Assembly: GCF_026210795.1 (NCBI RefSeq)
Contig: NC_089436.1
Location: 1,798,001-1,862,000, forward strand
DNA length: 64,000 bases
Direction of reading: 5' to 3'
Source: Rhizophagus irregularis
Lineage: Eukaryota; Glomeromycota; Glomeromycetes; Glomerales; Glomeraceae
Part shown: positions 16,826-64,000 of the stretch, piece after piece
Layout: each line of letters starts with the position of its first letter
How positions within the stretch are numbered: the first letter of the stretch is position 1
The notes under the pieces: generated by a model
Seen by the model: only the letters and a program-made list of their open reading frames with translations
Database searches by the model: none
What the model was told of the DNA's origin: nothing
Translations under genes and position numbers: made by a program

Positions 16826-17327
16826 TTTTCAATCTTTTTAAAATTATTATAAGGAAGGTTTATAGCTAATTCCTTCTTCAAAATAAGCAAATTTTATAAT
16901 AGGAGTTTTACTCCAAAAAGAGAAAAAGAGAGAAAAAAAAATAATAACTATTTCAAAATTCCAGATATCACATATAAAACTCACATTTGAGTTTTAGCAA
17001 ATTCAATCAAAATTAGATTAAACTCATAATTTTAGATAGAGCAAATTAATTGAAAATTAATTAATAGTTATAATTATAAGTTTTAGCAAATTGTGTTGAT
17101 TTTACAAAGTCATATTTTATATTTGAGCAAATTGGTACTTTTTTTTAAATTTAACTTATTCTTTTTTTTTAACTTTATAAATAATATTTTTAAAAATATT
17201 AGTTTCAGGATCTGGGTTATATTTTGGCTAAAATTAAGTATAATTCTGGCCAAAATTAAGCATAATGTAGGCCAAAACATTTGATTAGTTTTGTAACATT
17301 TTATTTTTTAATAATTATTTATATTTA
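16826..17327. other. AT-rich intergenic
   Basis: No gene seen. Several TTTTAGCAAATT-type words recur between 16990 and 17130 and again near 17790-17850, suggesting the flanks of the MITE lie in an older repeat. Confidence 0.4.
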
Positions 17328-17547
17328 GTGCTCCAAGACCGGTTTTCGGTCTTCGGTTTCAGACCGTTTTAACCAGAGACCGGTTTGAAAAAAATTCTCT
17401 GTAATAAGATTTTAAACCGGTTTGACATGTCAGACCGGTTTCAATCTACCTAAAAAGGAAAAATTAGTTAAACCGGTCTTGGTTTCTTTAGGCCAAACCG
17501 GTTTGAAACTGGTTTGAAGACCGGCTTCGGAGCACTATTTATATTTA
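17316..17547. mobile_element. 208-bp MITE with 12-bp target site duplication
   Basis: Element 17328-17535 begins GTGCTCCAAGACCGG and ends CCGGCTTCGGAGCAC, imperfect inverted termini. Its interior is full of AAACCGGTTT and AGACCGG words in both orientations. The same 12 bases, TATTTATATTTA, stand immediately left (17316-17327) and right (17536-17547). No coding capacity. The superfamily is uncertain; the real target duplication may be shorter (8-9 bp) and extended by chance. Confidence 0.85.
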
Positions 17548-19258
17548 ATTTATTGTTTTTAATAATTATTATTTTATCTATAATCTACATATTTTAATTA
17601 TAAAAATTGGCAGTTTAATTTATATTAATCATTTATTTTTTTATTGATAATAAAAAAAAAAGATTGTTAATTTTGGTAAATTAACAATTAAATTTACTGA
17701 TTTACAAATAATTTGAATAAACTGAAATTATATTTTATTAAGCAAATTTAAATCTATATTATTTAGAATTTTACTATAACTCATATTTTAAGTTTTAGCA
17801 AATTAGTATAGATTTAAAATGTGATAATTTGATTTTTAGCAAATTAGGTCTATTTTAGCAGGAGCAAAAAGTACTTAAATTCATGCAGATTAGTTATGAG
17901 TTATATATATGATATCCAGAATCCTGCTATTTCAATAATTTTCATACACTTTCAAAAAAAGCTACAACTTACCAGTTGAAATTAACATTTTAAAAATGCA
18001 AATTTTGAAAAATAAGTAGAGTATATAATATATATATTAAGATAGGTTTTAGAGAAAATGGTAAGGGATATAATATACTCTTTTATAAATATTTCAGAAA
18101 TTGATCATTTGATACACTCATAACTTTAAAACATAATGTATTTAATAATAAATAAAATTCTGAAATATATCATTAAATTATGATAAAAGGATATTTATTA
18201 AAAAAGAGCTATGTAATTTGCAAATTTAAGTAAAATTTTAAAATTTGAAATAATGAAATTATTTAGCCTATATGCTCTATAGTAAATTTTATTTGTTATT
18301 TAAGTAAAAAATAAATTGCTATAAATATAAAGTTTGAAACTAAAACTATCTAAAAGTATATAATTCATTATGATTTGCATTACATATTAAATTTTTAAAT
18401 AATAAATGATTTTAGTAAGCAAATATACCTGTAAAGTTCTACAAACCCAAAAGATAGAAAGGTAAACTATTACCATTTGATTTATTTAAATAAGATGATT
18501 TTAACAAATTGTATTTCATTTTTCTATTATTGTTACATCAGAAAATAACTAACCAATGATACAGTATTTAAGATTAAATTATAGAAGTCTTTACTTTGAT
18601 CCTTCTATACTACATATAATCCAAAACCACAGTCTATCTGGTAACTGATCAAAAAAGACCATATACTAGGAGTAAATAGAACTATTTAACATCTTTAATA
18701 TGTAACAAATTTGACATTATGGAATTAAATATAATATTTCTATGATAAATAATGGTATAGCAAATATGTGTTCATGCATTGCAAAAAAAGAATTTAAATG
18801 TGTCACATTACTCTTTTATTTTATGATTCCACACAAACTATTCGTCACCCCATTATTTGTCACTTGGGTGCAACTGACGCCAAATTGTCACGTAATAGTG
18901 AATTTTGCTGGAGTAGCTAATACGTCATCCATTATATAATTTAAATTTATAAAGTTACTTGTACCTTTTAAACCTCGATCTCACTGGGTAATATAATATT
19001 TGTCAGAAGACTAAGATTACTTAGATTTATAATGCTAAGAGTAAGATTTATGTAAATGCGATGAACGTAAAATCGAATTGTAATTATATAAAAATATATC
19101 CTATATCTTCTATTTATTTACTGTATTTGTATCAAGAGAAATACTTTAATGAACGATAAAAAAAAGTTGGAAAAATATATTCAAAATATAAAATACAAAG
19201 AAAGAAATACAAGCTTATCATCCTAAATTCTGTACATATAAATTTTATACAATGTATT
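17548..19258. other. AT-rich intergenic, no gene seen
   Basis: Nothing recognisable as a gene. A less AT-rich patch at 18830-18925 contains TTTGTCACTTGGGTGCAACTG and ACGCCAAATTGTCACG. It resembles the patch near 800-835 (CAACTGACGGACAACGACAAATTGTCA), so the two may derive from the same dispersed repeat. Confidence 0.4.
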
Positions 19259-29395: not shown

Positions 29396-31859
29396 TACGG
29401 TAATAAAAGCAAACAAAAGGAACAAAAAGATGAAAGTTTCGAAGAACCGTCAAAGATTTTTGGAATGAAATATGAAGACCAGCTGCAATTTCAAGAACAC
29501 ATCAACCAGCACATGCAATTTTACTTGTACTGGAGTACAGATTTTTATTTAGATTCCTATATCTATTTTTTGTTGACTACTAAATTTGATATTCACAGAT
29601 TCTTGCATGATATTGTATCACAGGAGATATACACAATGCACGAATATCTGAAGTTTTGAACTATCGAAAATAGATTGATAGACTCGTGATGTATACAAGT
29701 ACGAAGAAGGGAATTTCATCAAAGATTCGTTCATAATTACATATTTTTTCTTATCCGACTTTGCATTATCTAGTTAAAACCTTCAATTTTCTTATCGGAT
29801 AATAAAAGTTTAACTGTTAATTTGCTAAACATTAAGTAATTTTTTTTCCAAATTTCAGCTGACTATCTTACACCAAATTTAGTCAAATGATATCGTCGTA
29901 CAAAAGTAGTAAATTGAAACGTGAAACTCGGAACTCCGCGAAAACATATATCAAATAAAAAAAGAATGTCACTGCTCCTTTAAAAGAGCCTCTATAACAA
30001 AAGTACTGATAATCACTACGAAAAATTCTCATTGAAGAATTGCACTATTACTATATAGTATGCCTATTAACATAATGGAGAATCATATATGTATGTAATT
30101 TTTGATGATCCCACCAAAAAAAAACCGTTAACGTAAATATAATGAGCAAAGCTTTGATAAGTTAAAAGTCCTATTTAAAGTTGTGATCTTCGATTTTATT
30201 TATCCATCGCGTAATAAATCAATTTATTGAAACTGTTCTCATCACAAGATAAGGCTACTGGCTCTATAAATCGCAATTATCTTGCTATTGATTTCCACAT
30301 TTACCGATTTGTTTACTTTTTCTTTCTGATATGATCAATTGGATATTGATGATTGTAGAAAGAAATTTACAAATCATTTTTAAATACAATGTATCCCCGA
30401 TGGTGCAGGATCTGATTTTACAAATTATAGAATATCTGTTATGATGTAAAGTAAAATTAATATATTTTAAAAAAATTAAAAATTTGAATAAATACTAGTA
30501 TTTTCAATATATACAATATATACAATATAGATGCTTGGTACTACTCAATAAAGTTTGAATCAAGGTTAAAAACTTTTTTTTTAAAAAAAAACAATGTTAA
30601 ATAAAAATTTATCAAATATAATACCACATAGTATATTGCATATAATATCAGAATAGATCCTATAAGGTAAATATTTGAAAATTGCAGTTAAATAATGGTT
30701 TAATTTTACTTAAAAAAAGATATTATTGAATAAGATATTATATAATTTGTATAATAAAAAATATAAAAAGAAATATATATATATTATATATAATTTATAT
30801 AGAAGGTAATTAAACACTATTAAACACATTTAGAGTAAAAAAACTTACATATATATATATTATTAAAATAAAAAAATTAAGTTAAATACATTTATTACAA
30901 CTTAATCAGTATTGATTAAAATAAAAATTTATTAATGAATTCCATTTTTATTTGCTATAAGAATAATTTTAATTTTATTTATAAAATATATAGTTGATTA
31001 ATAATCTTATTAGTTATTACTGTAATATACTTTTCAAGTATTTTATTTTTGATAATATTAAATAATTTAATATTATTACATTAGATTATAAATTCAATAT
31101 AAGATTAACAAATATAATTTTATATGAATTAGCAAAATTTGTAAAGTACACTAATTTTTAAAATTTAAATAATAATTTAATTTTAAATTCATTAAATTTG
31201 TCTTATTAAGATAAATTTAATGATAATGATTTTATACTTTTAGAATTAATAGTTAATATAAAATATACTATAAGTTATATATAAAAATTATTGTAAAAAG
31301 TATACTGATTTTGCATTTTCATTAATTTTTGCAATTATTCATAGTTTGCAACTCATTAACATACCAAATGATAGTATTATTTGCATTAAATAAATTATTT
31401 ATATGAAGAGTAACTGGTGTAGTTTTACAATTAAATATATATGAATTATTTAATAATTTAATTTTAATAAAATTTTTCTTTTATAACCTTTGATAAAAGT
31501 TATAAAATTAAAAAAAATCATTTAAATTGAATTATTGAATAATAAAATAATTGTAAAAAATTAATAAAAATTCAAAATAAGTATTACTATCTTTTGTTAT
31601 AATAGTTTCTATATGCTATTCAAATTATTTTTAAACTGCTATAATTATAAATAAAATTCCAAATTTAATTATAACATTTCAAATTATTTTAGTATTTTAT
31701 ATAGTAAATTATATATAAATTAAATAAATTATAATATTTTAAATTACAGTGTGTAATAAAAAAAAACTAAAATTAAATTCATGATGATAATACCAAATTG
31801 TGTAAAATTTTTTATTTGAAAACTGAAAACCAGCTATTTTGATTGATATAAATAAACTA
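29396..31859. other. AT-rich intergenic
   Basis: First few hundred bases are the 5' flank of the syntaxin gene. A 64-codon plus frame at 29465-29659 has no support. From about 30,450 the sequence becomes extremely AT-rich and CpG-poor. No gene seen. Confidence 0.45.
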
Positions 31860-32700
31860 ATAAAAGATTTGTTTTCCTTTATTCTCAATAATCTCAATAA
31901 TAAGCTTTTCATTGAACTTGTGAAATTTTTAACATAGTATCTGGAATTGCTCTTTATTTTTTCACTATAAATCTTTCTAATTTATTGAGATTTTTTGGCA
32001 TTTAGCATTTCACATTTTCCTTAATAATTGCCTATAATTTATCTATTAGATTTAGATTAGAATTATTTAAAGATCAGTTTATGACATTTGGAGTATTATT
32101 TTGGAGAAATTCTCTAGTAAAATGGCTTGTATATTTTGGGTCATTATTCTGCTGAAGTTACCAATCATCATCAAGCATTATATCAATTTTTAAAATGTGA
32201 TTTTCAAGGATTTTAATATAAAATTCAGCATTTATTATTTAACAGAAGTAAACCAAATTTGTTTTGCTTATTTACACAAAATTTGTTCTATGCAAAAATC
32301 TTTACTCTATCTTTTAACATAGACGTATCAGCTTATATTAATGCTTCACAGTATTCTGAAAAAGTTAAAAGGTAATTTCATCTAAAAATAGGATTTTGTT
32401 CCAGTTATTATTAATATATTACTACATCTATTTAATACGTTTTTGCTTGTAAATAGCAATAAGCATTGAAGTTACCCTTGAAAGAGATTTTTTATATTCA
32501 TAAATAGCTAAATACTTTGAAACTATTATATAAAATACTTCAAAGCCCAATTGGCATAATTTTTTAACTAAATTTCTTGTTAAGATTAAAGTGTCTTTTC
32601 AAATACTACTTTGCTCAAGAGAATTTGAAAATTTACCAGTAATTTTTTTTAGCTGACTACTTTTTTTTTATGATTTATTGTTTTATCTTTATTTAACTTT
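31860..32700 (-). pseudogene. Tc1/mariner transposase relic with transition-type decay
   Basis: No long open frame, but one reading of the minus strand follows a Tc1-like transposase for about 250 codons with many stops. Diagnostic blocks: DDDWQLQQNNDPKYTS (about 32,170-32,125), where the family has QQDNDPKHTS; NNSNLNLIDKL-stop (about 32,075-32,040), where the family has NSPDLNPIENLW; then AIIKENV and MPKNLNKLERF and IPDT (32,035-31,940). Upstream, IYKQKRIK and TLILTRNLVKKL segments fit the N-terminal half. Nearly every difference is explained by C-to-T or G-to-A (His to Tyr, Asp to Asn, Pro to Ser or Leu, Trp to stop). Confidence 0.8.
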
Positions 32701-35700
32701 TTAATATTATCATATATTATGAAAAAAGGGATATTTATAACCTTATAAATTTTAGTACCTTTACATATTTCTTTATTTCACAGTTGTAAAATGATTTGTC
32801 ATTATTTTTTTTACTTTAATACTACTATTTTATGATGCAGTAAGACCCTGAACAATACAGTACTGATATAACTCACATTATTTGAGTTTGCATAGAGTTT
32901 TATATTAAAATTTTTCAAAAGTTGCATATTACAAAGTATTTTTAAAAGTTTATTATCATATATACCCCTGTTTTTAATACAACCAGTGATTCAATTTTAA
33001 TAAAATTTATATCATTAGATTTGTCTTGATGAGAGAATTCTAATGATAGTAAAATTGAATTCCTAACTTTAATATTGACAGAGTTATGTCATAAAATATA
33101 TTTTTACTTCAGTACTTAAAGTTTACTTGTAAATTATATTAGTATTATTCGGGATTCTGATGCAGTAACTCAAAAAAACAAATAAACATATACCTGATCA
33201 AAAGTCAGAATTTATTAGTATAATCATCACATCAATCTTCCACTTTTAGATTTTCAAATCAGACACAAATTGGTTGTGTAAGACTAATTTATGTTATATA
33301 TTTAAAATTCTAGTTTTTTGTTATATACTGTATATATATATATTTTTTATAGTTGCAGTATATTTGGAAGTTATATTTTACTTAATCAGCAAATATTTCT
33401 AATAAGTATTTAGAAGTTTATTAAAGTTGTAAAGAAAAAAAAAATACAAATTAATTAATTTAATAATCCAGTAATAAGTCTAATAATTAAATTACTTATT
33501 ATGTAAAAATACTTTATATATATACTATTAGATAAATTTAGGCTCAGTAAATAAGATTCAATTTGCTATTAATTCAGTTCTATCTTAAAATACTTGGCAC
33601 TCTATTTTTGCATCTGTTTGAAATCCTATCAGTCGATCTATTATATTGCTAAAAATAGAATAATATTTCTCACTATAGATGAAATTAAAATGAAAATAAT
33701 AAAATTAAAATAGTTAGCAAAAATTTTATAGGTCAAAATATAAAATTGAAATGAATTTTAATAGTTGTTTAATTATAAAAATTAAATAAATTATAGAATT
33801 GAAATAAATTACAAGAATCAAAATAAATTATAAAAGTTGAAATAAAATTTCAGTTTTTTTTATTATTAATTTATTATAATTTATAATATTGTAATTTTTT
33901 TTTTCACAAATTTATTAGTATAATATTAGTAATTATATAAAAATAAAAAAATTATAAATTATGTTATATTATTAATTTATTCTTTTATGGAATCTTATAT
34001 GTATACTATTAGGTGTTATAGTGATTAATCAGATAGATAACATATGAAATGCATTATCTTAATATATAGCCTTAACACTGCCTTAACATTTTTGTTTGGT
34101 AAACTATAAAATCTACTGCACTGCAATTATACAAAATTTTTTTTCAATTTTCATACTATTGATAAAAAGATTTATAAGAGAATTTTTACATTTGATTATT
34201 TGGTCAATAATATGTGAGTAGTAAAAACTTTATTATAATTAAAGTAGTTAGGTACAATTTGGTCAATTTGGTAATACTGAAAAATTTTTTGACTTAGATT
34301 ATTTTTTTACAACATGGTTTATTATAATATTATTTTATTATATTAAATTATTTTATTGTAATAGAATAATTTTTATTAATAAAGATATTAAATCTTTAAA
34401 TATAAAAAAAAACTTTTTTTTTACTTTTATTAAACTTATATATAGTTGACTTTCTTTATAGTCATACCTCTCGAAACTGAAAAAAAAGGTGTAATTATAA
34501 AAAAAAGCCATATATTGTGACTATAGAGAAGATTTTTCTAATATATTTATTAATATATTGAGTCAAAATATATATAATGTAATTATACAGAAGGTGACTG
34601 ACTATATAGGAGAGTTAACTGTATATTTTAAGTTCAAGTTTGTTTAAAAAGTTTAGTAATCTTTTTAAAAAAAAAGAAGAAACATTAATACATTAATTAT
34701 ATTTTTTCTATATATTAAAAAAACTTCACCTTTTATTAATTTACTGGAAATCTTGCATGTATTTTAAGTTTAGATTTGTCTAAAAAATCTGGCAATCTAA
34801 AGAAAAAAAAAAGTTAATATATTTTTTTTATGTATTAAAAAAATCTTTTCTTTAAAACCTTTAAAACTTTTATTTTTTATTTAAATATATACTTATACTT
34901 CAAATTAAACTTGATAAAAAAACTTAATGCAGTTATTAGTATAGTTTTATTTTATTTTTTTCATTCTTATTTTTTTTTGTAATTTTTTATCTTCTAGATT
35001 AAAAACAATCTGGAGAGATATTTTACCTAGAATAAGCAGTATAAACAAAATGTGAAATACCTTGCTTAAGTCAATAATAATAAGCAAAATACAAGTTCAA
35101 TAATATGAAAAGGTTTAAAATGATAATATTTTTATTAATAAACTTTTATTAACTACTTTAACAAAATATACTTTATATCAATGGATAAAATACTGCCCAA
35201 AACTTAGTAGTTTCCAAAACTATTAAAACTAAAACTTAGTAAAACTATTTTCTGAAATTTTTTTATTTTCCAAAACTACAAAACTGATAAAACTAATCCA
35301 AAATTGGTAAAACTAATTTGAAACTGGTAAATTAATCTAAAATTAGTAAAACTAATTAAATTAATAAAAAAAAATTTTAAATTAATATATCATATTATTA
35401 TAATAAATATTAATTTATAATTTTAAAATGAAGTATTAATAAGCTAATAAAATTTCTTTATTAATAACTTTATTTGTAAATTATAATAATTAATTAAAAT
35501 TTAAAAGATATATTAGTTATAATTTTATTTATATTAAATTCATTTTCATTTTCACTACTATTTATAATAATTAATTCTTTATTGATTTAGTTGTTTTATT
35601 TCCTTCAGTAATTAACTGATACTTAATAGTAAAAATGTTATACTAAACCTTATATATAAAAAGAGAGATAGAAATAGATTTACCATTCATGATTTTATGT

Positions 35701-35956
35701 TATCCTTGAATCCTTTCTTACGATTAATTTCCATTTTGCTTAATATTGCCATTTATTATATATCAAATATTAATAAAGACTTATCCATTTTATTCTGATT
35801 CTTTTCAAATTATTTAGTATGTTATGCTTTTTCGATAAAACATATCATATTTTAATGATATTATAAAGTGATTATTAAAACAAAACCATCCATTTAAAAT
35901 ATGCAGGCAACTTTAAGGATAAGGCACTAAAACTTCTAATATTGAAATAGTATGCA
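32701..35956. other. Extremely AT-rich desert
   Basis: No gene recognised. Dense stops in all frames, long A and T runs, CpG almost absent. Probably old transposon sequence decayed beyond recognition, continuing the region around the Tc1 relic. Confidence 0.45.
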
Positions 35957-36194
35957 GCTTAACTAGGATCCCGAAAAATACATAAAAAGGTCACATTTGA
36001 GTTTGCTTAAAAAGAACCTAAATTTTCATGAAAATCTTGTCTTTTTTAGATAATGCTGGCCTAAATTTTATTGTCTGTTTTGATACTGGCCAGCATTATC
36101 ATAATTCCGACCCTGAAAAGTTGCTTATTTTAGGCCAAAATCTTGCCGATTATTTATGACCTCCATATGTATTTTTTGGGGTTCTGCTTAACTA
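35957..36194. mobile_element. 220-bp MITE with 9-bp target site duplication
   Basis: Element 35966-36185 has inverted ends: left GGATCCCGAAAAATACATA, right (read inward) AGAACCCCAAAAAATACATA, both followed by AGGTCA-like sequence. GCTTAACTA flanks it on both sides (35957-35965 and 36186-36194). The interior contains an ATAATGCTGGCC/GGCCAGCATTAT hairpin (about 36,051-36,102). A 9-bp duplication is typical of Mutator-like elements; no coding capacity. Confidence 0.85.
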
Positions 36195-39075
36195 TACATA
36201 CTAATTCACTATGATGCAATTCAATTTATATTAATTCCTGTACTTTTACATTATTAGTATTAGTATCTGCAGTTATTCTAACAAATAGTTTTATTTAATT
36301 TTGCAAATAGTTATATGACTTTTATTTATACTTTAACTTTGAAAAATTTTGCAAGATTAAACAATATTATAAAATAAGAAAATAAAACAAAAAATAAAAT
36401 AAAGAGTAGCTTTACGATTCATACAAGTAAAGAAATTTAAACTAAAATAAAATTAAAGAAAAGAAAAACTAAATTATTACAGAATCACATACCCTAATTT
36501 TACCTAAAGGCCAGTATAAGTCAACTATCTAGTATATATATCACAAATCCACCTGTCAGAGAGAAATCTTAAGACAAAAAGGTTGAACTGTTAAGTGGTG
36601 CAGAATCCAAGTGCAAGATTTAAAATCCATCCTGAATTATAGAAGAGAAAACCTAAGAAACCCAGAAATCTGAGAAGACTGTTACCTAAGAAGAGTGATC
36701 AATTAAAGTAGAGAAGATTTGAAAAGATGGTAAAGAAGCAGGACAAGATTTTATGATAGTAGGAGTAATCCTTTGAGAAAGTTCTTAGTGATGAAAGAAA
36801 ATTGAACAGCAAATCCAAATATTCACATAAAGATGGAAATGGAATTTATGTAATAGAGAAGTCAGAGTTGTAAAGACCACTTGCTAAGAGAAAATTTGGC
36901 TAAGAAGGAATCAAAGTAGCAGGAATAAAACTGCAAGTCAACTAAAGATAAGGGTGAGAAGGCAAAGCACTATTTCAACAGTCAAGCACAAAATAGTTTT
37001 ATTTAATATTATATAGTAAAAAAAAAAGAATTATAATAAAATTTAAATATATAAAATTATATAACTAATAAAGTTAATTAACCAATAATATTTAATATAA
37101 AATATTTATTTAAATTCAATTTTTGGCAAAATGAAAGAGGATTGATGTTAAATAAAACTATTTATTAGAATGGCTTTATTATAAAATAAATTAAAATGAA
37201 TATTTGAATTTTAAATATAAATAAAAACTTAATTGAATCTTATTTTAAATATAATTTCTTAGTTTTAAATAAAGTTCTATTATATAATATATATAATATA
37301 AATTCTAGTTGTTTATTTTTTTATAAAGTAACTATTATTCAATTCATCTTATAAAACTATTCGAATAAGCTTTATTTTATTTTTCTATAACTACTGTTTA
37401 CCAAATTATTTAGCAAATCATTAAGTGGTGCAATTAAAATACCAAATTTTAACATTTTGTTGACTACCATTATTTTCATCTTGATAAGGTGATTCCAATG
37501 AGTAATTACTAAATCAAGAAATAACTGACAACATTACAGTTATACATAAATAATTATGTAATTTAATTATGAAATACGTTTTAGATTCGTTTTTGGCCAC
37601 AGATTTACCAGTTTTAATTTCAGCTAATCCGAATTGGTGATTTTTGGTCCACATTATAACATTAAGAAATTAATCGGCGACAAATAATTGCGTGACAGAT
37701 AAAATGGGCATATTATCACGTGGTTACTCCGTTTATACGTTTTCTAAACGAAAATTAATTTATATAAATAAGAAATCATGTTTTATGCAATAAATACTTG
37801 AGCAAACTTATAATGATTTGTAAGTAAATATTGTATAATTTGTTTAATTTTAATATTATTTACCGATAATATATATCAAAAATTTTTAGTTAAGAATGGA
37901 AAAATGAAACTTTTAAAATTGTTAAAATAAACTTGACTTTATATTAACTTTTTTTAAAAAAACTTATTGATTAAAGTACTTTTTAACTATTTAATAATCA
38001 AATATATTGCTAATTTTTAATGTTATTTATATAATTATAACCCTTTAACGATTTGTACATAGAATTTGTTAGCAGATCTATGAATTTACCAATAAGAAAT
38101 AAAGTTTGGTTATTGAAAATCAATGTGCTGAATATTTCAGTCATAGGGTACAAACGCAATTTATTATTTAAAAGAAATTGATCGTCGATCGTCACAAATT
38201 CATCTCTCTGCACGAGGTCATACAGTACAAGTAAATAAAAGGTGGTAGACCTCTTTTTCACCATTAAATATAAACGTTTTTTGTGTTTTGTTATAAGATC
38301 ATATGATTTACTGCAGAATATCGTAGAAACGTTATAAATTTTTTTCCAGAAGCGCTAGGAATTGCATTGTTCCTAAAAAAGGAATAGTGCAGGTTTAGAT
38401 TTTAGTCTGATTTACCCATCCTTTAAAGAAAATATTGAATTTAATGACATAAAATTAATATATGTATTATATGTATAAATTATAAAATAAGTTGAAACTT
38501 ATTAGAAGATCGTATATTAATAAATAACAAAAATTTTAAATGAAATAACGAACCGTTTTATAATGAGAAATAAACATTTTGTTCTAATCGTTCATAATGC
38601 AGCAGGATTTAAAATTAAAATATTAACTGTAACGAGAATGGACAAATTAAGAAAAAAAAAGAGTTGATCTTATTTAATATATTCGTAAAGTTTGTATAAC
38701 ATGGTCAGTCGTGATAAAATCATTTGTTGTATTATTTAAGAAGTTGGAATTAAAATCATTTGAAGATCGGATAAAAAGATAAATAAATAAAAAATAAATA
38801 AATTTAATTTAATATACTATTATCTCTGATTTCAGACTAAAAATGGCGGCGTGGAGAAAAATCTGAATTTAACTTATAATAGCAATTAATTTCTTCAAAA
38901 ACTTTTGTTCATAAATTTTGCCTTGATCGAATCCGTGACACAACAAATCGTGTACCATGTTACTGTAACTAAATATGCAAAAGATTTTTTTTGACATCAG
39001 CATGCATAAATGATTTCTATTTAAACGTGTATAAGCAGCACAAGCATAACTTTCACCTCCACATATTAAAAGATA
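36195..39075. other. Intergenic, partly purine-skewed, upstream of the RalGAP-like gene
   Basis: 36,560-36,980 is strikingly purine-rich on the plus strand (AGAAG/AAAG/GGA words) with scattered stops, looking like a one-sidedly decayed coding repeat; no family recognised. A minus-strand 84-codon frame at 38264-38010 is less AT-rich than its flanks and could be a gene fragment, but has no known motif. The last 200 bp before 39076 are the RalGAP-like gene's 5' flank. Confidence 0.35.
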
Positions 39076-60417: not shown

Positions 60418-63007
60418 ATGTACGCGTTAAATAATCTAAAAGGAAAAGGAAAGGAAGATGATGGTGACCATATTTATACAGCATTAGGAACTTCAGAACA
60501 ATCTTCGTCTTCTGATATATTAACGACGAAAGTTAAGGAGCCTACAAAATTAAAACCTCCATTATGGAATACATTGGAATTTTATATTTATTATGTAATT
60601 ATATCATTTTCTCTTGCATACGCTTTTTACATGGCATATGATATTAGTAAAGGTATGTATTTGTGAAAAGTTTATGCTAAGTGGAAATCATGATCTAATT
60701 GATCTAATTTTTTAGAAACAAACCCAAATTATATGAGATATTCTAGAAGATTGGAGCCAGGTTGGTTATTTGGACGTAAAGTGGTAAGTTAATTTTTATA
60801 CTTTATTTAATAAACGATCTCTCTAATGAAATGTTTCTTTAATTTATTTCGTAGGATAACAGTGATGCACAATTCGCTTCTTTTCGAGATCATTACGGAG
60901 CCTTGTTTATGGCTTCAATAGCTTATTTAATCCTTTCACATTTATATCGAATTTTTCTTGTACCAAATCCTCCGGCAAAATTACCATCCCAACCACTTCG
61001 TAGAACTTATTTTTTCTTAACATTTTCATTAATATTCCTTTATGTTCTTTTTGGAAATGGATTAATTAAAATATTGATTATTTTAAGTTTCAATTTTTTA
61101 ATTCCAATAACATTAAAAGGATCAAAATTGAATCCTATTGTTACTTGGCTGTTTAATTTGGCAGTTTTATTTATTAATGAAAATTATGATGGATATAAAT
61201 TTGAATGGTTTAACGAAAACCTTGCATTTTTAGTAAGTTAATTTTTGGAGATTTGATTATATTATTAAGAAAAAAATTCTCTTACTCATTATTCTCTTTG
61301 TTATAATTTTAGGATTCAAATGTAGGATTATTAACTCGATGGACTATTACATTCAACATATGTACGTTACGAATAATATCGTTTAATATGGATTATTATT
61401 GGTTATTTCACCCTTCACCAGATTCGACTGAGGTAATCTTGGGAGAATCATATGTAATAATGTTTAAAAAATTTTATTATTTATTTTATTTTATTTTATT
61501 TATTTCTTTCTTTTCGAGGAGACATTGCAACTCCTTTCGGTTTATTACAAAATTATAAATATTGAATATATATATATATATTTCTTCATTTAGAAAAATG
61601 ATAGAGATCAAGCACCATTAACAGAAAAAGATAGAATCATAACTCCGTGTTTTAAAGAAGATTATAATTATATTAATTATTTAAGTTATGTGTTATATAC
61701 ACCGTTATATCTTGCAGGACCAATCATTACTTTTAATAATTTTATCTCTCAGGTAAATACTCAATCAGATATTTTTACTATTGATAATTCCACCATTTGA
61801 GGTCAACAAAAAAAACCATACATCATAAACAAATTTTATTAACAATATTTATTTTCATATTGAAGTTAAGGTATCCGAAGGAATTTGATATAAAGTCAAC
61901 ATTTATTTATGGAGTTAGATTATTAGGAGTAATGCTTTTAATGGAAGTAATGTTACATTTTATTTATGTTGTAGCTATGAGTAAATCAAGAGCATGGGAT
62001 GATTTGTCACCTTTGGAATTAGGGATGATTGGAGTTTTCAATCTAGAATATATCTGGTTAAAAGTAAGGCAAAATAAATATTAAGTATTGAAATTAATAA
62101 TAAACCAAATATTAAATTATTATTTTTTTCTTTCTAGTTGTTAATTATATGGAGATTTTTTAGATTTTGGGCAATGGCTGATGGATTTGAAGTACAAGAA
62201 AATATGTTAAGATGTATGTTAAATAATTACTCCACAACAGGATTTTGGAGAAGTTGGCACAGAAGTTTTTATAGATGGATTATTAGGTAAGTTTACATTA
62301 CTTAATTCATCTTTTGTTTAAAATTTATTTTAAATACCTTTTTCAATTTTTATAGATATATTTATATTCCACTTGGAGGATCAAAATATTTAATATATAA
62401 TATGTTAATAGTATTTACATTTGTTGCATTATGGCATGATATATCATTAAAATTATTAGCATGGGGCTGGTTAATTTGGATATTTATTTTACCCGAAACT
62501 ATAGCTACTAAAATATTTACTGAAAAGAAAGTAAGTATAAAAATTTCTTTTTATATTTATTTATTTTCAAAAAGATTCTTTTATTAATATATATATATTT
62601 TTGATATAAAAACAGTTTGGAGATAGACCATATTATAGGCATGTATGTGCAATTGGTGGCGCATTAAATTTAGTTTTTATGTGGGCTGCAAATTTAGTTG
62701 GATTTGCTATCGGATTAGATGGTATGAAAGTAGTATTAAGTAATTTATTTGGAACATTACATGGTTAGTATAAATAAATATTTATATATACATATATATA
62801 TATATTTATTTATAAATAAATTTTTTTATATATATGTATATTTTTTTATTTTTATTTTTTTTTTGCTAATATTTTATTTTTCTTATACTTTAAGGTCTTA
62901 TCCAATTTTCCTTAAGTTTTATCAGTATATATTGTGCTGTACAAGTAATGTTTGAAATTAGAGAGGAAGAAAAAAGAAGAAATATTAATCAAGAAATTAG
63001 ATATTAA
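60418..63007 (+). CDS. GUP1: GUP1-like membrane-bound O-acyltransferase
   Basis: Ten exons (60418-60652, 60716-60783, 60855-61232, 61313-61432, 61594-61752, 61866-62063, 62138-62286, 62356-62530, 62616-62763, 62895-63007) all join in phase to 580 residues. GUP1 is an ER MBOAT enzyme that acts in lipid remodelling of GPI anchors and affects glycerol transport and sterol-rich domains. Family blocks: [20 protein letters not shown] after the first span; [35 protein letters not shown], the MBOAT signature; [39 protein letters not shown]; and [19 protein letters not shown] with the presumed catalytic His at about residue 463 (WHD). Many membrane spans. ATG at 60418 is preferred over an in-frame TTG at 60364 because fungal genes start with ATG. 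Confidence 0.92.
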
Positions 63008-63404
63008 TATTTATTTATTTATTTATTTATTTATTTTATTTATTTATTTATTTTATTTATTTATTTTATTTATTTATTTATTTTTTAAAAAATTTCTGAT
63101 AAACATTTAAATAAAAGCTTAATAGATTCTTTTTTTCTTACTAAAGGAATATTTATAATTTAATAGACAAGTAGTATTACAAATTCTGATACTAGATAGT
63201 AATAATTTAGACTAAATTATAATATTTATTTTCTTTATATATTAGTTTTAGCTTTTTGAATAAAAGAGTTAATTTCTAAATTTGCGAATTTGTGATAAAT
63301 ATTATTTTATTTATAAGTTACTTTTTTGTTTTAACTTATATATATATATTTTTTTTATAATAAATGTAATGCTTTAAAATTAACTGCATAAAATCTCTTT
63401 GAAA
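63008..63404. repeat. Convergent spacer with ATTT tetranucleotide repeat
   Basis: TATT/ATTT repeats run from about 63,008 to 63,082 directly after the GUP1-like stop; the rest is AT-rich spacer toward the convergent PDCD2-like gene. Confidence 0.8.
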
Positions 63405-64000
63405 TTATTGTTCATTTTGAACCAAAACAACTTCTTCATAATAAGAAACTTCATTAAATCCAACATCATTCATCTCACAATCATTCTTACAAGTAAATAC
63501 CATAATAGTTCCCCATTCCATACCAAGATTAAATATTGAATTATCATTTTTCTTATTTTTCTTATTTTTCTTATCAGAATTAATTTCATTTTCTTCAATA
63601 AAAGAACTAGTAGATAATGTAGTTAACATACTCGGCATTAATTGTAACTCAAAAACTCGACTTGACTTACACCAATGACAAACTGGTAATTTTGATGATG
63701 TGATTTCATCATTACAATTATCAAGTAGGAGTTTTGCAGTTACATCATTATGTGTATATAATAACGGTTGTCCATCAAATTGATACCTAAATAATATTGA
63801 TATAGGGAGTAATGAGATTCGAGAGTAAAAATAGATTAAAAAAAAAAGTCACCAAATTTTTTACCTCACACACTGATCAGGCCATTCTGCTACACGATCA
63901 GAAAATTTTTTAAAGGTTTTGTCATAACCTTTTGGTAAGATTGGCTTTTCATATTTCTCTCCAATCCAATCAAAATTGTCTTCGACTTCTTCATATGACA
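63405..64000 (-). CDS. PDCD2/Tsr4-like protein, C-terminal part (5' end beyond the window)
   Basis: Two exons are visible (from the right edge to 63865, then 63786-63405), joined by GTAAAA/TTTAG so that AG+G restores Arg in the block CVRYQFDGQPLLY. This is the PDCD2_C domain: YDKTFKKFSDRVAEWPDQC, then RY.F.G.PLLY, LPVCHWCKSSRVFELQLMP with a CxxC pair, WGTIMVFTCKNDC with a second Cys pair, and YYEEVVLVQ near the C-terminus, all standard for PDCD2 and yeast Tsr4. These proteins are dedicated chaperones of ribosomal protein uS5 (Rps2) in 40S assembly. A Lys/Asn-rich insert (NKKNKKNDN) interrupts the domain, as low-complexity inserts often do in AT-rich genomes. PDCD2 and PDCD2L types cannot be separated without the N-terminal part. 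Confidence 0.88.

Follow-up and report, generated by a model that had tools for sequence, protein, structure and literature searches.

C-to-T change dominates the decay of a dead Tc1/mariner transposon in the genome of Rhizophagus irregularis. C:G>T:A changes lead the spectrum after the death of the element, in all sequence contexts, with CG highest and CpG nearly erased, and they are the near-only change in a MITE that inserted later. Some of the broken copies examined show this C>T excess and others do not. The decay probably reflects loss of methylated cytosines by deamination in silenced repeats, chiefly at CpG and extending to all cytosines, as judged from comparisons among sequences.

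Results

The relic element and its family

The window (the whole stretch of 64,000 nucleotides that was analysed) is part of contig C8 in a genome of 146.7 Mb and 32 contigs. The preliminary description had recognised a Tc1 relic here. The relic is present and includes the stretch described, but the element is larger, lies on the minus strand and contains a nested MITE (Table 1). Its relatives of family F are seven elements of 1284 bp that are about 99% identical and end in TIRs of 28–32 bp; 13 places in the genome match the relic stretch, the relic itself included. Membership in Tc1/mariner follows from the transposase domains of intact relatives, with one family protein (L003) matching PF13358 (2.3e-13) and PF01498 (1.3e-14), i.e., DDE_3 and the Tc-type HTH, and from the termini of the relic, whose TIRs are still recognisable though degraded and which has a TA at either end. 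The domains in the relatives, the TIRs and the TA duplication are those of Tc1/mariner transposons, and no difference was seen save that this copy is dead. The DDE_3 matches that rank highest genome-wide are L039–L047, which have 1–4 stops inside the matched stretch; some pairs among them are 97–98% identical over long stretches.

Table 1. Features of the relic and its surroundings (window coordinates)
Feature	Position	Strand	Basis
Tc1/mariner relic, full length, split by nested MITE	31747-33330	minus	End-to-end alignment with seven ~99%-identical 1284-bp copies
TA target-site duplication, relic 3' end	31745-31746		TACAGTGTGTAAT... begins at 31745
TA target-site duplication, relic 5' end	33331-33332		ACTG at 33327-33330, then TA
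Transposase frame remains (ends approximate)	31858-32830	minus	Aligned to 326-aa frame of family F
317-bp MITE nested in relic	32842-33158		Repeat matches across genome
MITE 8-bp target-site duplication GATGCAGT, left copy	32834-32841		Sequence inspection
MITE 8-bp target-site duplication GATGCAGT, right copy	33159-33166		Sequence inspection
AT-rich, CpG-depleted repeat island around relic	30001-38000		2-kb bin composition

Spectrum of changes in the relic

Compared with its seven relatives, the relic shows 378 differences over 1255 aligned bases: 246 C>T or G>A (123 of each), 38 in the reverse direction and 94 transversions. Five pairwise alignment settings gave 231–238 C>T among 327–338 differences, and a second multiple alignment gave 248 among 388, with a Ts:Tv of 287:101. 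Alignment of family F with the shuffled letters of the relic gave a C>T share of 0.28 and a Ts/Tv of 0.52; the relic itself, aligned in a comparable way, gave about 0.70 and 4.0. An alignment artefact was rejected as the source of C>T, since the result stands under the five settings, the shuffled null and gap margins.

Polarisation by three outgroup groups, which stand for two families only, assigned C>T to 131 of 182 relic changes (90 of 121 under a strict rule). L025 and L032 both belong to family H, L032 being a broken copy, so the polarity was repeated with one sequence each of families G and H. At the sites with one and the same base in F and the two outgroup families, C>T makes up 100 of 140 relic changes, with per-site rates of 100/201 for C>T, 14/419 for T>C, 16/419 for T>A and 5/201 for C>A. 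A rule that drops C>T wherever any outgroup has T gave 127 of 198.

C>T changes are spread evenly over the codon positions of the relic frame (69/62/74; P 0.5), indicating that they arose after selection ended. The remaining changes crowd position 3 (17/11/43, or 43 of 71), so part of them predate death. When F is compared with outgroup copies from families G and H, C>T is concentrated at position 3 (G20, 26/14/54; G25, 20/22/52; G32, the broken H copy, 23/18/50). Codon positions thus argue against the C>T having come from pre-death divergence. The decay had been described as nearly pure C>T, which overstates the raw comparison with its 94 transversions; of the changes after death, about 82% are C>T as judged from codon positions 1 and 2 (131/159), and 85% as judged from position 2 alone (62/73). 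The individual codon changes read earlier were confirmed: QQDNDPKHTS now reads QQNNDPKYTS (GAC>AAT, CAT>TAT), and NSPDLNPIENLW reads NNSNLNLIDKL* (CCT>TCT, CCG>CTA, TGG>TAG). The frame has 17 aligned-frame stops, 16 of which need C>T or G>A alone, in keeping with the Trp-to-stop type of change noted before, and six indels, five of them not a multiple of three.

Sequence context and young copies

The C>T fraction in the relic is.62 at CG,.49 at CA,.45 at CC and.42 at CT. Only 2 of 54 CpGs are kept, and the CpG o/e is 0.13, compared to 1.09 in the family and 0.97 in the window; 180 of 393 non-CpG cytosines (about 46%) are now T. Five CpG-poor relics pooled, this one among them, give.545 (195/358) at CG,.431 at CA,.327 at CC and.337 at CT, contexts that are near saturation. 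CA exceeds CC+CT in this pool (odds 1.53, P 0.00035), and CHG does not differ from CHH (.346 vs.377, P.38).

Young copies were examined in five families. Of the 79 private changes in their 26 members, 62 are C>T, 12 are T>C, 4 are T>A and 1 is C>A; the Ts:Tv of 74:5 differs from that of the broken C13 copies described below (P 1.8e-9). C>T affected 39 of 1994 CpG and 23 of 11036 other cytosines, a difference of about nine-fold, and the latter comprise CpA 12/4843, CpC 6/2835 and CpT 5/3358. If family M is left out, whose three copies have poor polarity, 54 C>T remain, 33 of them at CpG, along with 7 T>C, 4 T>A and 1 C>A. Assembly errors at methylated CpG could inflate the young singletons, yet could not create the relic. 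The fastest change at CpG in young copies and the CpG depletion of the relic are those expected of 5-methylcytosine deamination.

Repeat-induced point mutation (RIP) and deamination of methyl-C had been the two sources proposed at the outset. The CpG lead favours methyl-C, while the strong CpA bias of RIP is absent, and the loss of non-CpG cytosines exceeds a CpG-only expectation. The relic does carry the C:G>T:A change of RIP in repeats. A strong Neurospora-type CpA preference was seen neither in the relic nor in young copies, with a mild CpA excess in the pooled relics. RIP is indicated by TpA/ApT above.89, (CpA+TpG)/(ApC+GpT) below 1.03 and a positive composite index; the values of the relic are.94, 1.33 and -.39. 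Only TpA/ApT passes, and this pass is uninformative because the AT-rich flank reaches 1.02 and the window.89, so the suggested check by RIP indices and CpA bias did not bring out RIP. RIP would also mutate long near-identical duplicates heavily, whereas the seven 1.28-kb copies of about 99% identity carry 0–13 changes, as do the young copies at large, in a gradual spread. CpA-type RIP was therefore rejected, as neither the context nor the indices support it and the young copies persist.

A mutator of relaxed context, i.e., a RIP-like or DIM-2-like enzyme system that recognises repeats and directly converts C to T, is a broader proposal that we regard as unlikely. It would accommodate the finding that certain copies, unlike others, show C>T in every context, and the order CG>CA>CC~CT with CA above CC+CT. 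The near-intact state of the young 1.28-kb copies argues against it, as do the strand patterns: runs of C>T on one strand were absent from the five relics tested (this relic, L016, L017, L029 and L030), with 121 runs in this relic against 121.9 expected.

The nested MITE

A first look found 332 candidates for the MITE in the genome, and all 40 that were scored match, this copy included. Relative to the majority of nine relatives, the copy in the relic has 14 C>T, 1 C>A and no T>C, and the nine others have 8–14 C>T and 2–7 T>C; the ten together show C>T in 110 of 153 changes. Some of these may be common to a subfamily and so predate the insertion. The decay of this copy indicates that C>T change reached DNA that arrived after the relic. 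Classical RIP acts on repeats above a threshold of several hundred bp, which a 317-bp copy with 14 C>T among 15 changes does not fit, and its decay also weighs against a mutator. The MITE may be of hAT-like origin. Among the nine other copies, the 8-bp duplication beside the inverted repeats is exact in two and has one mismatch in two, and the assignment is tentative because none was resolved for the other five.

Broken copies that keep CpG

A cluster on C13 decayed differently. Six F/H-related Tc1-type matches lie there within about 53 kb (about 2.114–2.168 Mb), some in longer shared segments. Three H-family copies of this duplicated cluster were counted (L032, L035 and L038); L033, L036 and L037 were aligned and left out of the counts because they lie.32–.36 from F, G and H. 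The counted copies have 5, 5 and 3 stops and 12, 11 and 16 frame indels, of which 12, 9 and 13 shift the frame, and they keep 22/30, 24/32 and 26/33 CpGs. Their 71 private changes comprise 23 C>T, 13 T>C and 35 transversions, and no CpG excess was found in their C>T (CpG 3/171 vs non-CpG 20/870). Ts:Tv is 22:20 and 18:17 away from gaps. The C>T share differs between the relic and C13 at P 1.4e-6 (P 0.0012–0.0016 away from gaps). The preliminary description had linked balanced substitution types with neutral decay and proposed the transition/transversion ratio as a check. The ratio of the relic is led by C>T, and balance (36:35 in C13) is instead found among other broken elements of this genome, which points to an agent specific to some copies.

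That the relic simply decayed neutrally in an AT-biased genome is very improbable in this light. In favour of such decay, the window has a GC of only.266, and even the C13 copies have C>T as their most frequent single change (23/71). All dead copies should then show the C>T bias, yet the C13 copies do not: their ratio is balanced, where the relic has 287:101 and the young copies 74:5. Non-CpG C>T and T>C per site are.0230 and.0071 in C13 and 97/215 and 9/369 in the relic, from which we infer a contrast between ratios of about 3 and 19. Six other DDE_3 pairs show no directed decay, with C>T:T>C near even at 160:157 (L041/L044) and at the extreme 63:44 (L053/L061); since the two directions are near balanced, these pairs were not used as controls.

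Other CpG-poor relics keep 6/56 (L016), 4/34 (L017), 0/15 (L027) and 1/19 (L030) CpGs, and two CpG-keeping loci 11/42 (L029) and 8/25 (L034). In L029, C>T makes up 32 of 71 polarised changes, and T>C at A/T sites of codon positions 1 and 2 is.088, against.024 in the relic. L034 has an excess at codon position 3, so part of its changes predate death, and L016 has the lowest C>T share among the CpG-poor relics (47/80). Six F relics are heterogeneous at positions 1 and 2 (P 3.7e-6), and the five CpG-poor ones are still so among themselves (P 0.033). Across eight loci (the relic, L016, L017, L027, L030, L029, L034 and C13, with zero counts of L027 set to 0.5), the CpG fraction kept correlates with non-CpG C>T/Tv at rho -0.98 and with C>T/T>C at -0.83; these CpG-keeping controls are few, being one duplicated cluster, L029 and the partly pre-death L034. 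Age was rejected as the cause of CpG loss, as transversions, the age proxy, do not follow it (+0.55, P 0.16). Frame indels number 11–16 in C13 and L029, 7 in L034 and 1–6 in the CpG-poor relics, including this one, so the CpG-keeping copies are not younger if indels mark age.

Surroundings of the relic

In the island around the relic, GC is.173,.200,.184 and.235 and CpG o/e.60,.20,.24 and.54 in successive 2-kb bins, whereas 23 of the 32 such bins of the window have a CpG o/e of at least.80. Short high-copy repeats of about 120–185 bp lie in both flanks of the relic (31610-31732, 34431-34572 and 35185-35369). Elsewhere in the window, 62001-64000 is a second AT-rich, CpG-poor stretch (GC.219, CpG o/e.42), and 16961-17322 and 17536-17925 are two repeat units of about 360–390 bp with dozens of genome copies, mostly at 90–94%.

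Such surroundings raise the prospect of a regional effect, in which AT-rich silenced chromatin has poorer repair of deaminated cytosine or less GC-biased conversion regardless of methylation. The flanks of the CpG-poor relics are GC-poor (.160,.171,.225,.226 and.207) compared to those of CpG-keeping L029, L032 and L034 (.265–.266), and the two sets also differ in indels (1–6 vs 7–16). We nevertheless consider a regional cause improbable, because L017 and L027 are CpG-depleted (o/e.35 and.00) within flanks of.74 and 1.05, and because young copies show the CpG excess with flank GC of.21–.39 (15 of the 26 copies measured).

Discussion

The CpG part of the C>T excess is directly accounted for by methyl-C deamination, and the non-CpG part would need non-CG methylation, poorer repair or a mutator. 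Under this reading, an old Tc1 copy would lose its function and then decay as silenced, cytosine-methylated repeat DNA. Gradual deamination of 5-methylcytosine would proceed fastest at CpG and, we infer, more slowly at CpA, CpC and CpT, with non-CpG loss perhaps arising because non-CG sites are methylated at a low level or because silenced chromatin is repaired less well. The process would be slow over long times rather than a single RIP burst, and unmethylated copies would escape it and change in a balanced way. Published data give methylation a place in this genome: transposable elements of R. irregularis are described as generally highly CG-methylated, with mCG at 13.8% of cytosines where only CpG context was called (PMC8647823). 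LC-MS put 32.5–49.5% of cytosine as methylated (PMC8298701), and this higher value would leave room for non-CG methylation. In the arbuscular mycorrhizal (AM) fungus Gigaspora margarita, the account given in PMC8647823 is of no RIP signatures and of a defence that is likely methylation plus RNAi. The open-licence literature, in the portions covered here, yielded no mutation-spectrum measurement for R. irregularis repeats.

The enzymes bear on the mutator as well. An exon-level PF00145 profile search of the genome gave six matches at five loci, with nine candidates scored. The C20 piece matches DNMT1, and the C30 and C17 pieces have a PPCQP motif, presumably typical of DNMT2. On C12, a BAH-like exon (24.8 bits, under the Pfam cut-off) lies near a catalytic methyltransferase exon whose best PDB match is 9baq/9bap, which we take to be DIM-2, with DNMT1 close behind. 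This pairing would suit a mutator, whereas RID/Masc1 was not identified by the exon-by-exon PF00145 search, a weak test. As a separate observation, five clustered pieces of 58–129 bp on C6 near 5052530 (L083) match one C20 DNMT1-like exon region, and 37 of their 41 differences are transitions. DNMT1, DNMT2, DNMT5, DIM-2 and RID are stated to be present in AM fungi (PMC8298701), and DIM-2-dependent mitotic C>T is reported in Zymoseptoria repeats (PMC8016269); both statements favour a mutator. However, over 98% of the DIM-2-dependent changes in Zymoseptoria tritici are at CpA according to the same report (PMC8016269), whereas CpA is mildly favoured here and CpG leads. It is unlikely that a fungus of glomeromycete type, for long regarded as asexual, possesses a gradual, all-context, repeat-directed cytosine mutator of RIP-like or DIM-2-like kind, which would spare some copies and so give two decay modes.

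The decay resembles known systems in part. Neurospora-type RIP also produces C:G>T:A on both strands of repeats, with stop codons as a result, but here the CpA preference is weak, the composite index is negative, the change is gradual, young duplicates are spared and a short repeat is affected. The C>T changes of Zymoseptoria tritici are likewise non-meiotic and repeat-linked, and its methylation order CG>CA>CC>CT, as given in PMC8016269, resembles the decay order here; its mutations spare CpG, whereas CpG is fastest in our data. In Microbotryum violaceum, which has a Masc2-like enzyme, repeats show Ti/Tv > 2 and CpG-led C>T ascribed to methylation plus deamination (PMC4352252), as in R. irregularis, where by contrast old copies lose non-CpG cytosines almost equally. 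The ten genomes of that study are described as ascomycetes and basidiomycetes (PMC4352252), and ours is a glomeromycete.

Two decay modes split by CpG retention would let sequence alone reveal methylation history, and they could account for AT-rich, CpG-poor islands. They would also render the question of RIP in AM fungi directly testable. If the non-CpG part is confirmed, it follows that a lineage traditionally regarded as asexual has either non-CG methylation or a mutator.
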